Assembly (NCBI RefSeq): GCF_018326265.1
Contig: NZ_AP023360.1
Coordinates: 3,711,501 to 3,775,500, forward strand
Origin: Catellatospora sp. IY07-71
GTDB lineage: Bacteria; Actinomycetota; Actinomycetes; Mycobacteriales; Micromonosporaceae
DNA length: 64,000 nt
Direction of reading: 5' to 3'
A program made the position numbers and the translations under genes. Below the pieces are notes generated by a model. It did not search any database and was not told the DNA's origin. It saw only the letters and a program-made list of their open reading frames with translations. Each line of letters begins with the position of its first letter. The stretch's first letter is position 1. Of the stretch, positions 3,514 through 17,837 are shown piece by piece.

Positions 3514-3631
3514 CGGACCCACGATATAGGGCAGCGGACCGGCCGGCCCGGCGGTGCACGCCGAATGCACGCGCCCCCGGTTACGTTGCCGCCGCCGCAC
3601 CGGCGCCTCCCCCGAACGACAAGGACCGGCC

Positions 3632-5293
3632 ATGACCACCCCCTCCGCGACCCCCGCCGATGTCGACGTCGTGATCGTCGGCTGCGGCCCCGTCGGCGCG
3701 CTCACCGCCAACCTGCTCGGCGTACGCGGCGTCAGCACGCTGGTCGTCGAGCGCAGCGCGCTGCCGCACGGCCAGCCGCGCGCGTTCTCCTGCGACGACG
3801 AGGCGCTGCGCGTCTACCAGCAGGCGGGGCTGCTCGGCGAGGTCGGCCCGGACATGCACCGGCCGGTGCTGGCGAACTACGTCAACCGGGCGGGCCGGGT
3901 CTTCGCCCGGGTCCGCCTGTCCGAGGTCGACTTCGGCTTCGGGCACCCGCCGCTGAACTTCTTCGACCAGCCCCGGCTGGAGGCGGCGCTGCGTACGGGG
4001 CTGGACCGCTTCGGCCACGTCACGCTGCGGCTCGGCACCGAGCTGGTGGGCCTGGCCCAGGACGCGCACGGCGTCGACGTCACCCTGCGCGACGCGGCCA
4101 CCGGGCAGACCAGCCTGGTCCGGGCCCGGTACGTGCTGGGCTGCGACGGCGCGCGCAGCACCACCCGGGCCGAGGCGGGCATCGCGCTGAGCGGGCGCAG
4201 CTACGGCGAGCCCTGGCTGGCGATCTCCGGGGACGTGCCGCCGGACGCGGTGCGCGTCCCGCACACCACGTTCGTGTGCGACTGGCGGCGGCCCGCGTTC
4301 GTGTCACCCGGCACCGCCGGCGGCTACCGGCTGGAGTTCATGCTGCGGCCCGGCGAGACCGCCGCCGGGATGACCCGGCCCGAGGTGGTCGCCGAGCTGG
4401 TCGCGCCGTACGTGGATCCGGCGCGGTTCACCGTCACGCGGGCCGTCGGGTACACCTTCCACGACCTGGTGGCCGCGCGGTGGCGGGAGGGCAGGGTGTT
4501 CCTGCTCGGCGACGCCGCGCACCAGATGCCCCCGTTCCTCGGGCAGGGCCTGGTCAGCGGGCTGCGCGACGCGGCGAACCTGACCTGGAAGCTGGCCCTG
4601 GTGCTGGCCGGGCGGGCGGGGGACGGGCTGCTGGAGACGTACGAGGCCGAGCGCCGCCCGCACACCGTGGCGATGGCGCGGATGAGCGTCAACCTGGGGC
4701 GGGTGTTCCTGGCGCGCAGCCGGGCCGGGGCCTGGGCCCGGGACACGCTGCTGACGGCGGCGCAGCTGGTGCCGCGGGTGCGGCGGGCGGTCGAGCACTT
4801 CGAGTTCAAACCCGTGCCGGCGTACGAGCACGGCCTGATGCGCGGCGGGCGGCGCAACGGCCCGGTCGGCTGCCTGTTCCCGCAGCCCACGGTGACCCTG
4901 CCGGGTTCTGCCGCGCCGGTGCCGCTCGACGAGGTGCTCGGCGACGGGTTCGCGGTGGTCGGCCTCGCGGCAGCCGTCGCGGCGCTGGGGGAGGCGGACA
5001 GTCCCTCGGGCGAGCCGGGCGGAGCGACGCCGCCGCTGCGGCGGGTGGCGGTGCATCCGGCCGGTGGCATCGTCGCGCCCTCCTCCGGCTCGGACGACGG
5101 CTCGCGGGTCGACGTCGTCGACACCGGCGGTGTGCTTGCCGGATGGCTGCGCGAGCGCGGCGTCGACCTCGTGGTGCTGCGGCCCGACCGGTTCGTGTAC
5201 GCCGTCGCGCTGGCAGCCGATGCCCACGGCGTGCTCCGCGAACTCACCGCGTCCCTCGCCGCCCCACGCCCCTCCCACACCGCCCGCCCCTAA
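3632..5293 (+). CDS. FAD-dependent aromatic hydroxylase-type monooxygenase
   Basis: 553-residue class A flavoprotein monooxygenase (PheA/TfdB/MhpA-like). The N-terminal Rossmann fingerprint is VVIVGCGPVGALTANLLG; the DG motif is LGCDGARSTTR; the GD motif that binds FAD ribityl is FLLGDAAHQMPPFLGQG. The last ~150 residues form the thioredoxin-like C-terminal domain found in phenol hydroxylases, so the length is normal. ATG at 3632 is preceded by AAGGACCGGCC; the frame is open further upstream but the added residues are not family-like. It is divergent from exonuclease III and alone in its transcription unit. The aromatic substrate (phenylpropionate-like or a natural-product ring) cannot be told. 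Confidence 0.88.
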   Translation: MTTPSATPADVDVVIVGCGPVGALTANLLGVRGVSTLVVERSALPHGQPRAFSCDDEALRVYQQAGLLGEVGPDMHRPVLANYVNRAGRVFARVRLSEVDFGFGHPPLNFFDQPRLEAALRTGLDRFGHVTLRLGTELVGLAQDAHGVDVTLRDAATGQTSLVRARYVLGCDGARSTTRAEAGIALSGRSYGEPWLAISGDVPPDAVRVPHTTFVCDWRRPAFVSPGTAGGYRLEFMLRPGETAAGMTRPEVVAELVAPYVDPARFTVTRAVGYTFHDLVAARWREGRVFLLGDAAHQMPPFLGQGLVSGLRDAANLTWKLALVLAGRAGDGLLETYEAERRPHTVAMARMSVNLGRVFLARSRAGAWARDTLLTAAQLVPRVRRAVEHFEFKPVPAYEHGLMRGGRRNGPVGCLFPQPTVTLPGSAAPVPLDEVLGDGFAVVGLAAAVAALGEADSPSGEPGGATPPLRRVAVHPAGGIVAPSSGSDDGSRVDVVDTGGVLAGWLRERGVDLVVLRPDRFVYAVALAADAHGVLRELTASLAAPRPSHTARP

Positions 5294-5649
5294 CCGCTGC
5301 GCCGCCCGCGGGTCAGTGCCGGCAGGCAGTTTCGGGGAAAGTGCACGAACAAGACGTGGGCAACCTGCACTTTCCCCGAAACTGCCTGCCGCGGAGGGCG
5401 GGCGGCGGAGGGCTGGGCGGTTACCAGGGGTTGCGAACTGCTCCGGTGTTTGTCGACAGGTGTAGTCGTGTGTCGTCATGTGTGGTGTCTGATGGTGGGG
5501 CGATGGGGGCGCCGCTGCGGGTTCGCCCGCTGGGGGTGCTGATGTAGGGGCATGTATTGTCGGTATGTGGTGCTTCGCCTGTTGTCGGCCGGTAGTCGGG
5601 ATGTCGCCGTTCGGCGGTCTGCCTGCGGTGGGCTGTCTGTACGTGGCGG
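5294..5649. other. Non-coding interval: long hairpin repeat followed by presumed left end of tnpB element
   Basis: No credible gene is seen. The first 100 bases hold a 25-bp perfect inverted repeat (annotated separately). From about 5430 the composition changes to T/G-rich (many TGTGT and GTGGTG runs), unlike the surrounding C/G-rich DNA, and continues into tnpB. This is taken as the left end of the transposable element. No tnpA (Y1 or serine recombinase) remnant was found. Confidence 0.5.
5321..5390. repeat. Palindromic repeat, TTTCGGGGAAA family (25-bp perfect arms)
   Basis: GGCAGGCAGTTTCGGGGAAA plus five more bases (5321-5345) is exactly complementary to 5366-5390, leaving a 20-base loop. 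It begins 28 bases after the monooxygenase stop and could act as its terminator, although no T-run follows. The core GCAGTTTCGGGGAAA recurs five times at 22416-22604, so this is an interspersed family and not a gene-specific terminator. Confidence 0.85.
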
Positions 5650-7122
5650 ATGTTCGGCTGTGTGCGCAGGCGGCCAGGTGTGAAGGGGTTTGAGCCGCGG
5701 GCTGGTTTCGTGGTGCAGGCGTACCGGTTCGCATTGGACCCGAATGTGGGTCAGCAGGTCGCGTTGCGTTCGCATTGCGGTGCGGCGCGGGCGGCCTACA
5801 ACTGGGCCGTGTCCTGGGTGACGGCGACGTGGTGGCAGCGCAGGGCCGAGCAGTCCTACGGCATCGCCGAGGAGCAGCTCACGCCGTGGCGGCCGTCGTC
5901 GCTGCCTGCGCTGCGTAAGGCGTTCAACGTGGTGAAGCACACCGATCCGCGGTTTGCCGGGTGGTGGGCCGACAATTCGAAGGAGTCCTACAGCACCGGG
6001 CTGGCCAACGCGGCGGCGGCGTTCGACAACTACACCAAGTCCAAGCAGGGTGTACGTGGCGGCCGTCGGATGGGCATGCCACGGCGCAAGTCCAAGCGTG
6101 GGGCGAGGTTGTCGTGCCGGTTCACGACCGGCACGATCCGCGTCGAGCCCGACCGCAGACATGTGACATTGCCGAGGCTGGGCACGATCCGCACCCACGA
6201 GAACACCCGTAAACTCCAGCGCCGCCTCGCCGCGGGTACCGCCCGGATCCTGTCGGCGACGGTGAGTTTCGCGCGCGGGCGGTGGTTCGTGTCGTTCCAG
6301 GTCGAGGTCATCCGCGACGCGCGCGCCCCGGCCCTGACCGACACCGTGGTGGGGGTCGATCTCGGGGTCAGGCACCTGGCGGTGCTGGCCGACAGCACCG
6401 GCGACATCAGGTATGTGCCCAACCCCGGGCACTACGACAACGCCCTGGCCAGGCTGCGTCGGCTGTCCCGGCGGGTCTCGCGCCGCCGGGGACCGGACCG
6501 GCGTGCTGGCCGCGCCCCGTCGCGACGGTGGGTCAAGGCCGACGCCGAACGCAACCGGGTCCACCACCGGGTCGCGAACCTGCGCACCGACGCGCTGCAC
6601 AAGCTCACCACCGCGATCCGCGCCGAATACGTCACGGTGGTGGTCGAGGATTTGAACGTCGCCGGAATGGTGGCCAACCGGCGGCTGGCCCGGAAGGTCG
6701 CCGACGCCGGGTTCGGGCAGATACGCCGTCAGATCGAGTACAAGGGCGAGTGGGCCGGCGGGGTCACCGGGAAGGCCGGCCGCTGGTACCCGTCGTCGAA
6801 GACCTGCTCGGAGTGCGGTGCGGTGAAAGCCAAGCTGCCGCTGCATGTCCGGGTGTTCACCTGCGAACAGTGCCCTTTGGTGATGGACCGTGACGCGAAC
6901 GCGGCACGTAACCTCGCCGCCCTGGCGGCGGCAGTCTTGGCTGGTACCGGAGTGGCCGGAGACCAGGACGCGAAAGCGTCGAACCCTCGTGGAGCCGACC
7001 GTCAGACCCGCGCCACCACCCGACCGCGCAAGCGGCCGGGTGGGCGGGCAGGTGGCGCAATCCCGCATCAGCGGACAGAAACGAGAGATCCTCGTCAAGC
7101 CGAAGCGGTCACGCTCCGGTGA
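5650..7122 (+). CDS. tnpB: RNA-guided endonuclease TnpB, IS605 family
   Basis: 490-residue TnpB that appears catalytically complete. N-terminal helix-turn-helix-like region (CGAARAAYNWAVS), OrfB central domain, and split RuvC nuclease: Asp237 (VGVDLGVRHLAVL), Glu333 (VVVEDLNVAGM) and Asp415 (MDRDANAARN). The zinc ribbon has Cys386/389 (CSECG) and Cys405/408 (CEQC). TnpB proteins are omega-RNA-guided DNA nucleases that help retain their element. The start is uncertain: ATG 5650 gives a 20-residue extension, while GTG 5680 or 5710 (before VQAYRFALDP, the usual TnpB beginning) are equally likely. The ~70-residue Arg-rich tail after the RuvC-III motif overlaps the predicted omega-RNA. No partner transposase is present. 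Confidence 0.92.
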   Translation: MFGCVRRRPGVKGFEPRAGFVVQAYRFALDPNVGQQVALRSHCGAARAAYNWAVSWVTATWWQRRAEQSYGIAEEQLTPWRPSSLPALRKAFNVVKHTDPRFAGWWADNSKESYSTGLANAAAAFDNYTKSKQGVRGGRRMGMPRRKSKRGARLSCRFTTGTIRVEPDRRHVTLPRLGTIRTHENTRKLQRRLAAGTARILSATVSFARGRWFVSFQVEVIRDARAPALTDTVVGVDLGVRHLAVLADSTGDIRYVPNPGHYDNALARLRRLSRRVSRRRGPDRRAGRAPSRRWVKADAERNRVHHRVANLRTDALHKLTTAIRAEYVTVVVEDLNVAGMVANRRLARKVADAGFGQIRRQIEYKGEWAGGVTGKAGRWYPSSKTCSECGAVKAKLPLHVRVFTCEQCPLVMDRDANAARNLAALAAAVLAGTGVAGDQDAKASNPRGADRQTRATTRPRKRPGGRAGGAIPHQRTETRDPRQAEAVTLR

Positions 7123-7160
7123 TGGCAGGAACCTTCCCGCCCGAAAGGCCGGGATTGCTG
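6990..7160 (+). ncRNA. Probable omega-RNA (reRNA) overlapping the 3' end of tnpB
   Basis: Nested stems lie inside and just after the tnpB 3' end. GCGCCACC (7010-7017) pairs with GGTGGCGC (7051-7058). Inside it ACCCG-A-CCGC (7018-7027) pairs with GCGG-C-CGGGT (7032-7041) across a GCAA tetraloop. A second hairpin TCCCG-C-CC/GG-C-CGGGA (7135-7154) has a GAAA tetraloop. This position and structure fit the guide RNAs of IS605 TnpB, whose 3' guide is copied from DNA just beyond the right end. Exact 5' and 3' limits are inferred. Confidence 0.6.
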
Positions 7161-7176
7161 ACATCCGAGTATGGAA

Positions 7177-7768
7177 TCAGCAACGGCAGCAGGTCGACGG
7201 GACGGTGACGTACACGACGGCCAGCACCAGCGCGGCCAATGCCGTGAAGGTCAGCACGGTGCCCGTGGCCAGCAGGCCGGTGACCCGCAGCGTCCCCCGC
7301 ACGGCCCGCCAGACGAGGTAGGCCACGACGGCCGCGCGGACCCACGGCAGCAGCGGATAGAGGTCGTGGACCAGCGATCCGACGGATCCGCGGTCGGAGG
7401 TGTGGAACAGTTGCCACAGCAGGAGCACCACGGGCCCGCCGAGCAGGGCTGCCACCGTCGCGATCATGGCCGCGGCCGACCAGGCGTGCTCCGCCGCCGC
7501 GCCGGAACAGTCCGATCGCGATGAGGCCGAGGCCCAGCACCACGGCGGACACGGCGATCAGGTGCGGCCGCCAATAGCCCAGATCGTCCACGAAGCCGAT
7601 CCGCTCGGCCCGCGCCGCCAGGATCGAACCGGCCACCGCGACCTGGGCGGCCATGCCGAGCACCGCGAGCACGGCGAAGGCCACCCAGACCGCACGAACC
7701 GCGGGAGCGAGGCCCGTCCCGGCCTGCCCGCCGCCCGGCACAGGTGCCGTTGTCTCACCGGCCATCAT
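7177..7768 (-). pseudogene. Integral membrane protein gene with a single-base frameshift
   Basis: Reading from the ATG pair at 7768/7765 (preceded by GGGGAGGAG), the frame encodes two membrane spans (AVRAVWVAFAVLAVLGMAA and HLIAVSAVVLGLGLIAIGLF) ending in FRRGGG. At a GGC repeat near 7503-7513 coding potential moves to another frame, which continues EHAWSAAAMIATVAALLG with three further spans to the stop at 7177. The interval is 592 bases, one more than a multiple of three, consistent with a one-base insertion in the GC-rich run. Restored, it would be a ~196-residue five-span protein. The defect may be genuine decay or a sequencing error. Its 3' end abuts the tnpB element, which may have replaced the original C-terminus. 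No family recognised. Confidence 0.65.
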
Positions 7769-7990
7769 GTCTCCTCCCCGTGATGAGACGCCGTGCTCGG
7801 CGTCTCGGAAGCGCCGTGAGCGCAACCGCCACGGCCCGCCGGGATGCTACGACGACTCCCGGGGCGCGTGGGCCTGCCGACCGGCCGGTGAGCACAGGTG
7901 GGTGGGAGAGGGCGCGGGCATGTGGGTCGGCTCGGCAGAAGCGCGGTTCGGTCCTGCCGTGCCGGCTGAGTCGCCCGCGACGGGGTCAGG

Positions 7991-8428
7991 TCAGGACCGG
8001 CGGGGCGGCCGGTGGGCCGGGCGGGCGTCGTCGGGCAGCTGCTCGCGCATCCAGGCGCCGCAGCTGGCCGCGTCGGGGTGGGCGCATTCGGCGACGTGGC
8101 GCAGCACCGTGGCCGCCACCCGCAGGATCTCGATCTTCTCCAGCACCTCGGGCAGCTTCTCTGCTGCGTAACGCGCCCGAGCCGCCGGGTCCGGGGTGTC
8201 CAGGATCAGGCGGATCTCGTCGGCCGTGCAGCCCAGCGCCTGGCACATCTGGATCATCTGGAGCCGGGCCGTGTGCCCGTACGTGTACCGGCGGTGCCCG
8301 TTGACCAGCCGGTCGGCCACCAGCAGGCCCTCGTCGTCCCAGTACCGCAGCGTGGTCGCGGGGACCCCCGAGCGCTCGGCGAACTGCGCCACCGTCCACT
8401 GCGGATCACGCGACGGCAGGGTGTGCAT
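7991..8428 (-). CDS. MerR-family transcriptional regulator
   Basis: 145-residue regulator. The N-terminal winged helix reads WTVAQFAERSGVPATTLRYWDDEGLL (about residues 11-36) with wing residues NGHRRYTYG, followed by the typical QMIQMCQALGCTADEIRLIL and a coiled dimerisation helix. The C-terminal region holds two cysteines (ECAHPDAASCGAW), which might bind a ligand or metal. It is divergent from the NAD(P)-binding oxidoreductase gene, and the space between contains a 19-bp-spaced promoter with a dyad in the spacer. It probably controls that gene and itself. Ligand unknown. Confidence 0.88.
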   Translation of the reverse strand: MHTLPSRDPQWTVAQFAERSGVPATTLRYWDDEGLLVADRLVNGHRRYTYGHTARLQMIQMCQALGCTADEIRLILDTPDPAARARYAAEKLPEVLEKIEILRVAATVLRHVAECAHPDAASCGAWMREQLPDDARPAHRPPRRS

Positions 8429-8447
8429 CGGCTGCTCCCCGGCGGGC

Positions 8448-8478
8448 TTGACTTCGAGTCGGCTCGAAGGTGTGCCAT
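8448..8478 (+). promoter_or_regulatory. MerR-type promoter/operator with 19-bp spacer
   Basis: -35 TTGACT (8448-8453) and a weak -10 TGCCAT (8473-8478) are separated by exactly 19 bases, the over-long spacing that MerR proteins correct by DNA untwisting. The spacer carries the dyad CTTCGAG-TCGG-CTCGAAG (8452-8469). It reads toward the oxidoreductase gene at 8526. Confidence 0.8.
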
Positions 8479-8525
8479 GACTTTAGCCCGCCCCGCCCGG
8501 GGCGGTCGTGATCGGAAGGAGCATC

Positions 8526-9191
8526 ATGGACACCCACGTCGCCGTGCTCGGCGCCACCGGCCGGGTCGGCACGCTCGTGGTCCGCCAGGCGCTGGACCGT
8601 GGCTGGTCCGCCACCGCGCTGGTACGCGACCCCGCCCGGCTGGCCGCCGACCTGAGGGGCCGCAGCGGCCTGCGGATCGTGACCGGCTCGATCGATGATC
8701 CGGCCGCGATGCGCGAGGTGATGAGCCCGGCACCGGCCGCCGTGATCGTCGCGGTCGGTGTGCGCTACCGGCGCCGGCACCCGTGGAGCGGCATCGAGGG
8801 CCGTCCCGACGTGGCTCCGGCGGCCGTGCGCACCGCGCTGGCCGCGGCTCCGGCCGGCACCCGGTTCGTGTTGCTCAGCGCGTTCGGCGTCGGGGACTCT
8901 TGGCGGCGTCTGCCCGCGCCGGTGCGGGCGGTGCTCGCGACGAGTTCGCTGCGGGTGGCGTACCGCGAGCTGGCCGTGGCCGAGCGGCTGGTGGCGGCCG
9001 CGACGCCGCCCGGCGTGGTGGTGCGGGCGGTGACGCTCACCGACGGTCCCGCGACCGGCCGCGCCGACGCGACCGGGCGGCCGCTGCGGGGCAACCCGAA
9101 GGTGAGCCGGGCCGACGTGGCGGGCCTGCTGCTGGACACGGCCGCCGGACGTGACGTGCGCGGCGGGCGGGTCCTCGTGGCCGCGGGCTGA
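8526..9191 (+). CDS. NAD(P)-binding (NmrA/SDR-like) family protein
   Basis: 221-residue Rossmann-fold protein. The dinucleotide-binding motif is VAVLGATGRVGTLVVRQAL at the N-terminus (GxxGxxG), followed by VTGSIDD and a central FVLLSAFGVGDS strand. It resembles the atypical SDR/NmrA group, which bind NAD(P)H as reductases or redox sensors; no complete Tyr-x3-Lys catalytic pair is evident (YRELAVAERL replaces it). ATG 8526 follows GGAAGGAG at good spacing. Its promoter is of MerR type, so expression is probably induced by the signal sensed by the divergent regulator. Confidence 0.8.
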   Translation: MDTHVAVLGATGRVGTLVVRQALDRGWSATALVRDPARLAADLRGRSGLRIVTGSIDDPAAMREVMSPAPAAVIVAVGVRYRRRHPWSGIEGRPDVAPAAVRTALAAAPAGTRFVLLSAFGVGDSWRRLPAPVRAVLATSSLRVAYRELAVAERLVAAATPPGVVVRAVTLTDGPATGRADATGRPLRGNPKVSRADVAGLLLDTAAGRDVRGGRVLVAAG

Positions 9192-9197
9192 CGCGTG

Positions 9198-9246
9198 AAG
9201 AAGGGCACCTTCTACAACGCATAGCGTTGAGAAGGTGCCCTTCCTT
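9198..9246. terminator. Bidirectional hairpin terminator built from an AAGGGCACCTTCT repeat
   Basis: AAGAAGGGCACCTTCT followed by ACAACGC pairs with GCGTTGAGAAGGTGCCCTTC plus CTT, giving a ~22-bp stem with a three-base loop between two convergent genes. Each arm is a copy of the AAGGAAGGGCACCTTCT unit that also occurs twice as a direct repeat at 17785-17837. Confidence 0.8.
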
Positions 9247-9254
9247 GCTCGGGG

Positions 9255-10121
9255 TCAGCAGTTGTTGCTGCGGAAGTCCGAGATCGAGAGACCGCTGTAG
9301 CCGCAGGTGTACGGCGTGAAGCGGGCGTCGTTGTTCAGGTAGCGCTTGAACCAGGAGACCAGGGCGCGCGACAGGGTCGCGTTGCTGGTCTGCGGGAAGA
9401 AGTGGCTGGCGCCGTTGAGCTCGATGTAGCTCTTGGGGCCGCCGAGGGAGTTGTAGAACGGGATCGAGTGCGAGTTGACCGCGGCGATGGTGTCGCTCTC
9501 GCCGCCGACGATCTGCACGGCCTCGTTCAGGCCGCCCCAGGTGGTGTCGAGGTTCCACGGCGCGATCGGCACACCCGCCTTGACCAGGCCGGTGGTGTCG
9601 GCCGCGAGGGCCTCCAGGGTGCCGCCGCCGCCCATGGAGTGGCCGGCGACGCCGCGGCGGCTGCCGTCGACGCGGTCACGCACGGAGCTGGGCGCCGAGT
9701 TCACGGCCCAGTTGAGGGCCGCCAGCAGCTGGCTGCCCCGGCTGGCGGGCTGGTCGTAGATGCTGTTGGTCTCGATGCCGACGACCACGAAGCCCCAGGA
9801 CGCCAGGCGCGGGCCGATCCAGCTGATGCTGGACCAGCGGGCGGTGAAGCCGGGAGAGATCGCGATCACCGGGTAGCGGCCCGAGGTGGTCGGGTAGTAG
9901 GCCACGCCGCCGCCGAAGCCGCTGACGAGGCTGGAGATGTTGTAGGTGGAGACGGAGAAGCTGCCGTTGCCGGTGATGTTGGAGGACGTCGGCGCCTGGC
10001 CGATCTCGTCGGCGTACGCGGGTGCGGCCGCGCCCAGCGCGGTTCCGCCGGCGAGGGCGGTGGCGACGAAGGCGGTGGCGACCAGGCGGGTGAGCCGCCT
10101 GCGGACGGATACTTGCGGCAC
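9255..10121 (-). CDS. Secreted polyester hydrolase, PETase/cutinase-like
   Basis: 288-residue exported alpha/beta hydrolase of the actinobacterial cutinase/PETase group. The signal peptide ends near AAPAYADE (about residue 38). Family marks: FGGGVAYYP, ISPGFTARWSSISWIGPRLA, GFVVVGIETNSIYDQP. The catalytic triad is Ser162 (GHSMGGGG), Asp210 (GGESDT) and His240 (NGASHFF). The substrate-subsite Trp189 (APWNLD) is conserved; the oxyanion position normally Tyr is Phe92. Cys273 and Cys288 sit where the C-terminal disulfide of these enzymes lies (SDFRSNNC ending). GTG 10121 is chosen for its AGGAG at 7-base spacing and the signal peptide it yields. Natural substrate is likely cutin-like or other aliphatic polyester. 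Confidence 0.9.
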   Translation of the reverse strand: MPQVSVRRRLTRLVATAFVATALAGGTALGAAAPAYADEIGQAPTSSNITGNGSFSVSTYNISSLVSGFGGGVAYYPTTSGRYPVIAISPGFTARWSSISWIGPRLASWGFVVVGIETNSIYDQPASRGSQLLAALNWAVNSAPSSVRDRVDGSRRGVAGHSMGGGGTLEALAADTTGLVKAGVPIAPWNLDTTWGGLNEAVQIVGGESDTIAAVNSHSIPFYNSLGGPKSYIELNGASHFFPQTSNATLSRALVSWFKRYLNNDARFTPYTCGYSGLSISDFRSNNC

Positions 10122-10331
10122 TGTTCCACTCCTGACGGTGAGGAACCGGCTCCGTTGCGGCGGTGCCACGGGGGACGGGGAAGCCGGTTGTCGGGCAGTG
10201 GAGCCAGTCTCATCAGCACCGGTGACAGGACGCATCGGCAGAATCGCCGGTCACGCGGCCTGCCTCGGGCGCAGGCACACCGGCCGGTGATGGGCCGGAT
10301 CACCGGTCACGGCCCGCCCGCTTTCACCGAG

Positions 10332-10401: not shown

Positions 10402-11370
10402 ATGAACCTGGAGGTACGCCATCTGCGAGTGGTCTGCGCGATCGCCGACACCGGCAGCGTCACCAAGGCCGCCTCGCTGCTCGGGCTCGCCCAGCCCGCC
10501 GTCACCGCGCAGTTGCAGCGCATCGAGCGGGCCCTGGGCGGCCCGCTGTTCGAGCGCGGCCGCCGGGGTGTCACCCCCACCGCCCTCGGCGAGCTGGTGC
10601 TCACCCGCGCCCGGGTGGTGCTGCCCGCGATGAAGGGCCTGCAGGAGGACGCCGCCCGCCTGGCCGGGCAGGTGGTCCGGCCCAACCAGTGGCGCATCGG
10701 CGCGGTGAACGGCCCGATCCTCGGCGGTCTCATGTCGCGCCTGGCCGAGAGCGACGGCACGCAGGTGCTCACCCACCCCTCGCACTGGGCGGACAAGCTG
10801 GCCGAGCTGACGGCGGCGGGCAAACTCGACTTCTGCGTCGTCGGCGTCTGCGGCGACACCGTGCCCGGCGCGCCCGACGACGGGCTGGTCTGGCGGGAGA
10901 TCGCCATCGACGCCATCTTCGTGATGCTGCCCGAGAGCCACCCGCTGGCCGACAGCTGGGAGGTGGACCTGTCCGACCTGGCCGAGGCGCAGTGGGCGAG
11001 CATGCCGGGGGACGGCTGTTTCGGCGACTGCTTCGCCGCCGCGTGCGCGCGGGCCGGGTTCGCCCCGCGCACCATGCACGAGATGGACTTCGGTAACGCC
11101 CTCGACGCGGTGCAGGCCGGCCACGCGGTCGGGCTGTGCAAGGCGACGTTCCGCCGGGTGGACGGGATCGTCACGCTGCCCATCGCGGGCGGGCCGCTGC
11201 GCTGGCGGCACCTGCTCGGCTGGCACCCGCGCGGCGAGGCCGCGGCGTACGGCGAGGCGGTGCTGGCGCACGCCCGTGCGGCGTACGCGGAGTCGGCCGC
11301 CCGCAACCCGCACTATCTGAAGTGGTGCGAGGCCAATCCCCGGTTCGGGCCGCCGCTGCCCATCGCATGA
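10402..11370 (+). CDS. LysR-family transcriptional regulator
   Basis: 322-residue LysR-type regulator. The N-terminal winged helix reads LRVVCAIADTGSVTKAASLLGLAQPAVTAQLQRIERALGGPLFER (residues 8-52), followed by the linker helix and a two-lobed co-inducer domain (ending around residue 300). GGAGG lies just upstream of the ATG. It is divergent from the polyester hydrolase gene across a 280-base region, so it may regulate that enzyme in response to a breakdown product. This is inferred from position only. It is followed at 57 bases by a secreted protease on the same strand. Confidence 0.9.
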   Translation: MNLEVRHLRVVCAIADTGSVTKAASLLGLAQPAVTAQLQRIERALGGPLFERGRRGVTPTALGELVLTRARVVLPAMKGLQEDAARLAGQVVRPNQWRIGAVNGPILGGLMSRLAESDGTQVLTHPSHWADKLAELTAAGKLDFCVVGVCGDTVPGAPDDGLVWREIAIDAIFVMLPESHPLADSWEVDLSDLAEAQWASMPGDGCFGDCFAAACARAGFAPRTMHEMDFGNALDAVQAGHAVGLCKATFRRVDGIVTLPIAGGPLRWRHLLGWHPRGEAAAYGEAVLAHARAAYAESAARNPHYLKWCEANPRFGPPLPIA

Positions 11371-11427: not shown

Positions 11428-12912
11428 ATGAATCGCAAACTCCTCCACCTCTCCGCGGTGGCAGCCCTCACCCTGGGCGTCACCGCCGCGCTGACCTATC
11501 CGGCGTCGGCCGACACCCGTCCCGAGAGCGCCGCCGACGCGGCCGCGACCGCGGGCGTCTCGCCCGAGGTCTTCCAGGCCATGGCCCGTGACCTCAAGCT
11601 CGACGTCGCCGGGGTCAAGGACCGCCTCGCCAACGAGAACCGGGCGGCCAAGGCCGACCTGTCGCTGCGCAAGTCGCTCGCCGGCACCTACGGCGGCGCC
11701 TGGCTGTCGGCCGACGCCAAGTCGTTCACCGTAGGCGTGACCAGCCAGGCCGAGGCCGCCAAGGTGACCGCCGCCGGCGCCACGCCGAAGCTGGTCAAGC
11801 ACAGCCTGGCCAAGCTCGACGCGGTCAAGGCGCAGCTCGACGCGGTCGCGGCGAAGGCGCCCAAGGCTATCCCCGGCTGGTACGTCGACGTCGCCGCCAA
11901 CACCGTCGTCGTGCTCTCGCGCGGCGCCGACGCGGCCGCGTTCGTCAAGGCCGCGGGGGTGGACGCGAGCGCGGTGCACATCGAGGCCACCACCGAGAAC
12001 CCGGTGCCCTACATCGACGTCATCGGCGGCAACGCGTACTACATCGGCAGCGGCAGCCGCTGCTCGGTCGGCTTCTCGGTGAGCGGCGGCTTCGTCACCG
12101 CCGGCCACTGCGGCAGCACCGGCTCGACCACCACCCAGCCCAGTGGCACGTTCCGCGGTTCCAGCTTCCCCGGCAACGACTACGCCTGGGTGCAGGTGGC
12201 CTCCGGCAACACCCCGCGCGGTCTGGTCAACAACTACGCGGGCGGCACCGTAAGCGTGAACGGCTCCACCGACGCCGCGATCGGCGCCTCGGTCTGCCGC
12301 TCCGGCTCGACCACCGGCTGGCACTGCGGCACCATCCAGGCCCGCAACGCGTCCGTGACCTACTCCCAGGGCACCGTCTCCGGCCTCATCCGCACCAACG
12401 TGTGCGCCGAGCCGGGCGACTCCGGCGGCTCGCTGATCGCGGGCAACCAGGCCCAGGGCGTCACCTCCGGCGGCTCGGGCAACTGCTCGTCGGGCGGCAC
12501 CACCTACTTCCAGCCGGTCAACGAGATCCTGCAGGCCTACGGCCTGACCCTGCTGACCGGCGGCACCACGCCGCCGTCGTCGCCGCCGCCCGGCGGTGGG
12601 GGCTGCTCGGGCTACGAGTTCACCCGCACCGGCTCGCTGTCCAGCGGCGGCAGCGTCTACCAGCCGGACAACAGCTACTACCAGTCGACCGTCTCGGGCA
12701 CCCACCGCGGCTGCCTGGCCGGCCCGTCCGGCACCGACTTCGACCTGTACCTGCAGAAGTGGAACGGCTCGGCGTGGGCCAACGTGGCCTCCGGCACGAC
12801 GTCGGCCAGCTCGGAGTCGATCACCTACTCCGGCACCGCGGGCTACTACCGCTACCGGGTGCACGCGTACAGCGGCTCGGGCAGCTACACGCTCGGCTTC
12901 AGCAACCCGTGA
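11428..12912 (+). CDS. Secreted S1-family serine protease (streptogrisin/alpha-lytic type) with C-terminal PPC-like domain
   Basis: 494-residue exported protease. Signal peptide to about residue 28 (PASADT); a ~165-residue alpha-lytic pro-domain (KSLAGTYGGAWL, HIEATTENPVP) that would fold and then be removed; and a chymotrypsin-like catalytic domain with His227 (TAGHCG), Asp251 (NDYAWV) and Ser332 (GDSGGS). Cys pairs around each catalytic residue match streptogrisins. A Pro-rich linker (TTPPSSPPPGGGG) leads to a ~90-residue domain (FTRTGSLSSGGS...DFDLYLQKW...YYRYRV) resembling the bacterial pre-peptidase C-terminal domain, which is often cleaved off secreted proteases. Its role is extracellular protein degradation. 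A strong palindromic terminator follows. Confidence 0.93.
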   Translation: MNRKLLHLSAVAALTLGVTAALTYPASADTRPESAADAAATAGVSPEVFQAMARDLKLDVAGVKDRLANENRAAKADLSLRKSLAGTYGGAWLSADAKSFTVGVTSQAEAAKVTAAGATPKLVKHSLAKLDAVKAQLDAVAAKAPKAIPGWYVDVAANTVVVLSRGADAAAFVKAAGVDASAVHIEATTENPVPYIDVIGGNAYYIGSGSRCSVGFSVSGGFVTAGHCGSTGSTTTQPSGTFRGSSFPGNDYAWVQVASGNTPRGLVNNYAGGTVSVNGSTDAAIGASVCRSGSTTGWHCGTIQARNASVTYSQGTVSGLIRTNVCAEPGDSGGSLIAGNQAQGVTSGGSGNCSSGGTTYFQPVNEILQAYGLTLLTGGTTPPSSPPPGGGGCSGYEFTRTGSLSSGGSVYQPDNSYYQSTVSGTHRGCLAGPSGTDFDLYLQKWNGSAWANVASGTTSASSESITYSGTAGYYRYRVHAYSGSGSYTLGFSNP

Positions 12913-17786: not shown

Positions 17787-17837
17787 GGAAGGGCACCTTC
17801 TTAACGTTTTCCGTAGAGGAAGGGCACCTTCTCAACC
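17785..17837. repeat. Two direct copies of the AAGGAAGGGCACCTTCT repeat
   Basis: Copy 1 (17785-17806) and copy 2 (17816-17837) share GGAAGGGCACCTTCT followed by (T/C)AAC, 31 bases apart. The first copy starts inside the TAA stop of the GGDEF-EAL gene. The same unit forms both arms of the hairpin at 9198-9246. Each unit is itself a weak palindrome (AAGG-GCA-CCTT) and could fold at the ends of the convergent genes. Confidence 0.8.

Follow-up and report, generated by a model that had tools for sequence, protein, structure and literature searches.

The gene at positions 10121 to 9255 (minus strand) of the window, the 64,000-nucleotide stretch of Catellatospora sp. IY07-71 DNA analyzed here, encodes, as judged from its sequence, a homolog of the type I PET hydrolase (bacterial cutinase-like) family and is preceded by a 19-bp conserved element that also stands ahead of many other actinomycete genes of the same Pfam family, PF12740. 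We think it probable that the product is a secreted type I PET hydrolase that acts on ester polymers or lipids and that the gene is switched on by a LipR-like activator through this element, together with a co-induced regulon. The enzyme, as an enzyme, is well placed within a known kind and is unsurprising. What deserves further attention is the conserved element, the more informative feature, along with the regulon proposed for it, and the recurrence of the element ahead of PF12740 genes of soil actinomycetes hints at how such genes are naturally switched on.

Gene structure and family placement of the encoded enzyme

The gene starts with a GTG codon at 10121, seven bases 3' of a Shine-Dalgarno-like AGGAG, and ends with a stop codon at 9255 to 9257, encoding 288 amino acids. 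The initial annotation named no strand for 9255 to 10121; the plus-strand reading of this interval is an unrelated, different open frame and was rejected. Translation of the minus strand placed each of the residues cited in that annotation (the triad Ser162, Asp210, and His240, together with Trp189 and Phe92) at the number it had been given, and the motifs GHSMGG, ASHFF, and SDFRSNNC were all found in the protein. The C-terminal cysteine pair that had been described corresponds to Cys273 and Cys288, the sole cysteines of the protein. Residues 1 to 36, judged by eye, form a putative signal peptide, and the enzyme is probably secreted. In an AlphaFold model of the protein (28 sequences; mean pLDDT of 79.9), residues 7 to 37 fell below 50.

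The protein matched the Pfam model PF12740 (PETase, PET hydrolase-like) at 305.4 bits (E value of 4.3e-91; profile positions 5 to 248 of 263), exceeding the curated cutoff of 28 bits, and it matched the KbPETase chain with an E value of 1.5e-114. The closest solved structures by sequence were KbPETase (9iw9), Kubu-PETase (8yty, 8ytw, and 8ytz), Mipa-PETase (8ytu and 8ytv), and a Thermomonospora curvata hydrolase (7ykq and 7yko), and the first ten matches in a fold search with the AlphaFold model were all to KbPETase, Mipa-PETase, and Kubu-PETase. Identities in the alignment were 66.4% over 253 residues with KbPETase, 61.4% with Kubu-PETase, 59.9% with Mipa-PETase, 57.7% with 7yko, 52.2% with LCC, and 42.4% with IsPETase. 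In a tree of 53 rows, comprising 46 genomic loci (best hits, sampled unevenly) and 7 PDB sequences, the protein fell within a group of 25 rows that included KbPETase, Kubu-PETase, and Mipa-PETase, with support of 100/100; the row labeled 8etx in the alignment and tree carries the sequence of 8ety. The PF12740 match and this clade bear out the proposal in the initial annotation that the protein belongs among the PET-active cutinase relatives.

The NCBIfam equivalog model NF051441 (BHET hydrolase BdeA) scored 297.2 bits, below its cutoff of 520 bits, and the fungal-type cutinase model PF01083 did not match the protein at an E value of 0.001; one PF01083 gene is present elsewhere in the IY07-71 genome. 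The tannase model PF07519 (MHETase type) had no match in this genome, and control genomes gave none either. Among the papers accessible to the search, none treats Catellatospora and polyethylene terephthalate together.

The definitions of type I PET hydrolases used here were those of a review (PMC11219463), and the protein carries the sequence features named there. It has a single disulfide position, with Cys273 and Cys288 aligning with the C-terminal pair of LCC and no second cysteine pair present; the His-Phe pair of subsite II is represented by His161 and Phe241; the subsite I residues His218 and Phe222 (LCC numbers) are conserved, with HSIPF invariant across 28 alignment rows; and the extended loop is absent, nothing standing opposite the IsPETase insertion in the alignment. 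The features of type IIb (IsPETase-like) enzymes, namely, a Trp/Ser subsite II, a second disulfide, and the extended loop, were not found in the aligned window enzyme. The flanks of the catalytic Ser and His are of the LCC type (GHSMGG and SHF) and not of the IsPETase type (GWSMGG and SHS) in the alignment. On family placement and on these flanks, the earlier reading was right; its use of Phe92 as a distinguishing mark did not hold up.

Phe92 had been regarded as an unusual replacement of Tyr at the oxyanion position. Phe occupies this position in 26 of the 53 tree rows and Tyr in 27, with six changes needed on the tree, and the residue does not set the enzyme apart because KbPETase, Kubu-PETase, the Thermomonospora hydrolase 7yko, PHL7, and Cut190 share it. 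According to the same review (PMC11219463), the position held by Tyr95 in LCC is Phe in both PHL7 and Cut190, and the consensus for subsite I is Tyr/Phe-Met-Trp. The IY07-71 genome also encodes a 67% identical paralog (locus L002) with Tyr at the oxyanion position, and the two enzymes constitute a natural Phe-versus-Tyr comparison within one genome.

Catalysis as proposed here follows established knowledge of the family. By homology, Ser162 would attack the ester carbonyl after activation by Asp210 and His240, the oxyanion would be held by the main-chain amides of Phe92 and Met163, and Phe92 would clamp the substrate together with Trp189, so that the predicted active site consists of the triad and a Phe92/Met163/Trp189 pocket, with a Cys273-Cys288 disulfide. 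The natural substrates would most likely be ester polymers and lipids (cutin, suberin, and glycerides), with PET or PBAT hydrolysis as a side activity; this proposal is based on the companions found behind the element, which are lipases, an acyl-CoA dehydrogenase, and a monocarboxylate-type permease.

It is possible, if doubtful, that the protein is a plain secreted lipase or esterase like LipA of Streptomyces exfoliatus, acting only poorly on solid polyesters, and that its likeness to PETases is one of fold and pocket only. The family does include the S. exfoliatus lipase 1jfr, class 2 lipases are among the companions behind the element, and the element and the LAL context described below resemble those of lipA-type genes. 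However, the nearest solved relatives (KbPETase, Kubu-PETase, and Mipa-PETase) have all been studied as PET hydrolases, KbPETase outperformed both IsPETase and LCC in the paper that describes it (PMC12228687), and the pocket residues are the type I PET hydrolase set. The window enzyme is a further natural candidate alongside these three PETases.

A conserved 19-bp element upstream of PF12740 genes

Approximately 130 bp upstream of the gene is conserved across Catellatospora. The 19-bp element CCGGCGATTCTGCCGATGC (10232 to 10250, minus strand) is located here, 110 bp before the start codon, and departs from the family consensus CCGGTGATTTCGCCGATGC at 3 positions. In its core, GGTGA-TT-TCRCC, two inverted arms flank a central TT, and beyond it comes a second conserved block whose spacing hardly varies, at about 40 bp from the start of the element. 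A composite profile of the element, termed R1, matched at 10196 to 10254 on the minus strand with 21.2 bits and an E value of 0.0029 in the whole genome, the fifth best match.

The consensus was set on 46 loci and afterwards applied to 30 loci from a later search. At up to 3 mismatches, the element was present ahead of PF12740 genes in 33 of the 46 loci of the first set, a count that is circular because the consensus had been fixed on those loci, and in 18 of the 30 later loci, for which it is not circular; in total this amounts to 51 of 76 loci, which are best hits from related species and therefore not independent events, versus 0 of 1,520 random stretches. Relaxing the threshold to 4 mismatches gave 56 of 76 loci versus 13 of 1,520 random stretches of the same loci, and 5 mismatches gave 63 versus 42 of the same numbers. 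Full stretches of 12 of the 76 loci contained no element at up to 5 mismatches. The copy ahead of the Tyr paralog differs from the consensus at 5 positions, and R1 missed it both in the genome search (E values up to 10) and in a direct search of that locus (E values up to 1).

As a site finder, the 16-mer core alone was unspecific: it had 101 matches in the IY07-71 genome at up to 2 mismatches, many of them probably coding, versus 2 for a reversed control. The 19-mer pattern at up to 3 mismatches had 47 matches versus 17 for its control, and separation of sites was achieved only with the composite profile and not with either pattern. Pattern matches in L065, L087, and L084 looked misplaced or coding.

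Two further loci can be noted. In L148, a locus that we take to be Thermobifida-like, copies with 3 and 5 mismatches are found at tandem genes that are presumably Thermobifida cutinases. In genome G060, the element (1 mismatch) lies 67 nt before the start of a gene (L235:211-1437) for a 409-amino-acid protein that is PETase-like but divergent and carries additional sequence at its N terminus; it has a signal-like start, and its PF12740 domain (45.7 bits) is confined to the C-terminal half. Among the papers listed for regulators or a regulon of cutinases and PET hydrolases and for LipR, none was seen to deal with the 19-bp element.

R1 sites elsewhere and the proposed regulon

R1 is a sequence-only profile of 67 positions that was trained on 41 loci, none of them from Catellatospora. 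In a search of the IY07-71 genome (8.6 Mb), in which 150 of 23,036 first-look candidates were scored, five sites had E values below 0.01 and a sixth had an E value of 0.038. Three of the five precede alpha/beta hydrolases: the window gene, a PF20091 hydrolase with a signal-like N terminus, and a PF00561 hydrolase. A fourth lies before a gene for an MctP-like permease that is divergent from an acyl-CoA dehydrogenase gene. These two names indicate likeness, since the MctP model gave the permease 564 bits, below its cutoff of 625, and the best model for the dehydrogenase (pimeloyl-CoA dehydrogenase large subunit) gave 171 bits, far below its cutoff of 624. The best-scoring site of all (C1:7577808-7577859) precedes a gene for a 238-amino-acid protein that starts with MTVQIYDIMA and has no Pfam match. 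A homolog of this protein in genome G010 keeps the site at the same 32-nt distance; the genes of the pair are at L184:1553-2266 and L233:782-1495.

Among 13 other genomes, R1 matched 32 places at E values of up to 0.01, spread over 12 of the genomes, and 7 of these were training loci. Of the 25 others, 23 were read: 14 lie before a gene for an ester-hydrolase fold (6 PF12740, 3 PF20091, 3 of the PF00561 type, and 2 Lipase_2), 4 before an MctP-like gene, and 1 before a gene of the 238-amino-acid type, and 4 were ambiguous or coding-like; Pfam was run on seven of these proteins, matching six and not the 238-amino-acid-type protein, and the remaining assignments relied on coordinates or on near identity in sequence.

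Since the element is found ahead of other ester hydrolases and of the permease/acyl-CoA dehydrogenase pair in addition to the window gene, depolymerase, uptake, and breakdown functions would be co-induced. We give an even chance to the hypothesis that these sites mark an ancient LipR-box regulon of actinomycete PET-hydrolase-family genes, in which one LAL-type LuxR activator, sensing the breakdown products of ester polymers, would switch on polyester and lipid hydrolases of several families and, with them, an acyl-CoA dehydrogenase and a permease for monocarboxylates; the 238-amino-acid protein is perhaps also part of it. If the regulon is true, the 19-bp box could serve as a tag for finding natural polyester depolymerases by their regulation and not by protein similarity, PF20091 hydrolases included. 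A conserved box with named targets and two candidate activators is directly testable.

Candidate activators

A LipR-like LuxR/LAL protein probably binds the element and would induce transcription of the window gene in trans. We infer this identity and direction of regulation from the co-location of LAL genes with PF12740 genes, from the inverted repeat, and from the likeness of the latter to the PAS-LuxR operator, CTVGGGAWWTCCCBAG (PMC9774167). According to a review, the Streptomyces LuxR family protein LipR, whose gene adjoins lipA, is a direct activator of this operon and acts through conserved sequences that lie upstream of -35 (PMC12134079), and S. coelicolor LipR targets were inferred from binding sites in one paper (PMC8857197).

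Six regions from a single Streptomyces-like genus, and a region of the Micromonosporaceae genome G054, have a LAL gene behind the PF12740 gene; nine regions were examined, seven of which had been picked for an already seen LAL gene, and the other two (L147 and L148) were without the LipR type. The genus behind the six regions (L140 and L142 to L146) we take to be Streptomyces. Within 4 kb, a LAL gene or LAL-like frame was present in 4 of 26 named loci; the LAL-like frame of L028 runs to the end of the locus, and no DNA-binding domain was seen there. LipR-type DNA-binding domains share a distinct sequence, and a search with one of them in 11 Catellatospora genomes gave 18 matches of at least 66.9 bits, with at least one per genome, the next match having 54.1 bits.

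The IY07-71 genome encodes two LipR-like proteins, at about C1:3885909 and C1:8421817. No contiguous lipR (LAL) gene lies beside the window gene, whose neighbors encode a LysR-family and an NAD(P)-binding protein (Pfam), and the nearer of the two LipR-like genes is about 165 kb away. One of the two is approximately 14 kb from the MctP site and is clustered with genes for a thiolase, a branched-chain-type ABC transporter, and an acyl-CoA dehydrogenase. In G007, G008, and G009, a PF12740 gene is found directly behind the MctP-like gene at the end of this LAL/thiolase cluster. The second LipR-like gene forms a divergent pair with a Lipase_2 gene, and that region yielded no element. The LAL/thiolase cluster (L179:3315-19052, corresponding to C1:8421814-8437551 of IY07-71) is conserved in Catellatospora with its LipR-like LAL, thiolase, ABC transporter, acyl-CoA dehydrogenase, and MctP-like permease genes.

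A role of the element as part of a promoter or as the site of another regulator, such as an alternative sigma factor or the LacI-family protein encoded nearby in some Catellatospora, and not as a LAL operator, can be entertained tentatively and seems rather unlikely. The second conserved block and its nearly fixed spacing would fit such a role, as would the LacI-family genes near 6 of the 26 named loci (L006, L007, L009, L010, L011, and L013), that of L006 being Pfam confirmed and about 200 bp before the PF12740 gene. None of the other 20 named loci showed the LacI cluster, however, while LAL genes adjoin PF12740 genes in several genera and the inverted repeat has a layout resembling that of the PAS-LuxR operator. 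The LysR-family gene (10402 to 11370, plus strand), which is divergent from the PF12740 gene across a shared 280-bp gap in the classical LysR arrangement, was set aside as a most improbable dedicated regulator because the linkage is kept in C. bangladeshensis only; five other Catellatospora loci that have the conserved upstream 130 bp gave no LysR match in the surrounding 4 kb.

Distribution and gene neighborhood

Six Catellatospora loci match the window gene at 84 to 96%. All 11 Catellatospora genomes searched have a match at E values of up to 1e-30; a close ortholog (at least 84%) is present in 8, including IY07-71, and the remaining 3 have only a relative of 57 to 59%. At the family level, matches with E values of up to 1e-40 occur in 139 of 200 genomes. 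In five Catellatospora loci (L006 to L010), the gene is followed by DNA that matches window positions 3537 to 1815, and thus roughly 5.7 kb (3537 to 9255) differs between Catellatospora species. This variable stretch includes genes for an FAD-binding protein and a MerR protein, among others, and an IS605-type OrfB/TnpB gene at 5650 to 7122 (PF01385 and PF07282).

A perfect-armed hairpin at 9201 to 9242 (no strand assigned; fold z-score of -7.9) lies directly behind the gene and is likely a terminator shared with the convergent gene at 8508 to 9191. It is formed by the 13-mer AAGGGCACCTTCT, of which two further direct copies are found at 17789 and 17820 (window 17789 to 17832); no recurrence of this 13-mer is expected by chance. 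On the other side of the gene, the window encodes further degradative enzymes, namely, a protease with an alpha-lytic-protease prodomain (11428 to 12912, plus strand) and a protein in which fn3 domains are combined with CBM2 (cellulose-binding) domains (15663 to 12982, minus strand).

Comparison with known systems

KbPETase from Kibdelosporangium banguiense shares with the window enzyme the clade, the oxyanion Phe, the triad, and the positions of the single disulfide, but it has GWSMGG, with Trp before the nucleophile, and DHFF, whereas the window enzyme has GHSMGG, with His, and SHFF. Kubu-PETase (8ytw), of the same clade, likewise has Phe but also GWSMGG, and Mipa-PETase (8ytu), again of this clade, has GHSMGG but differs by Tyr and by Asn after the catalytic His. 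The type I cutinase LCC (4eb0) is like the window enzyme in the His/Phe pair of subsite II, His218 and Phe222 of subsite I, the absence of the extended loop, and the one disulfide; it differs in its oxyanion Tyr and in a Phe-Tyr pair where the window enzyme has Tyr122 and Gln124. IsPETase (type IIb) shares the triad and has a similar C terminus (SDFRTANC), but the window enzyme lacks its Trp/Ser subsite II, its second disulfide, and the insertion of three residues in the loop.

With respect to regulation, the closest parallel is the Streptomyces lipA-lipR operon, the S. exfoliatus lipase 1jfr being of the same family as the window enzyme. In the six regions of the Streptomyces-like genus, the 19-mer precedes the PF12740 gene and the LAL gene lies behind it. 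Unlike that operon, the window gene has no adjoining LAL gene, and the element is found also ahead of unrelated hydrolases and a permease.
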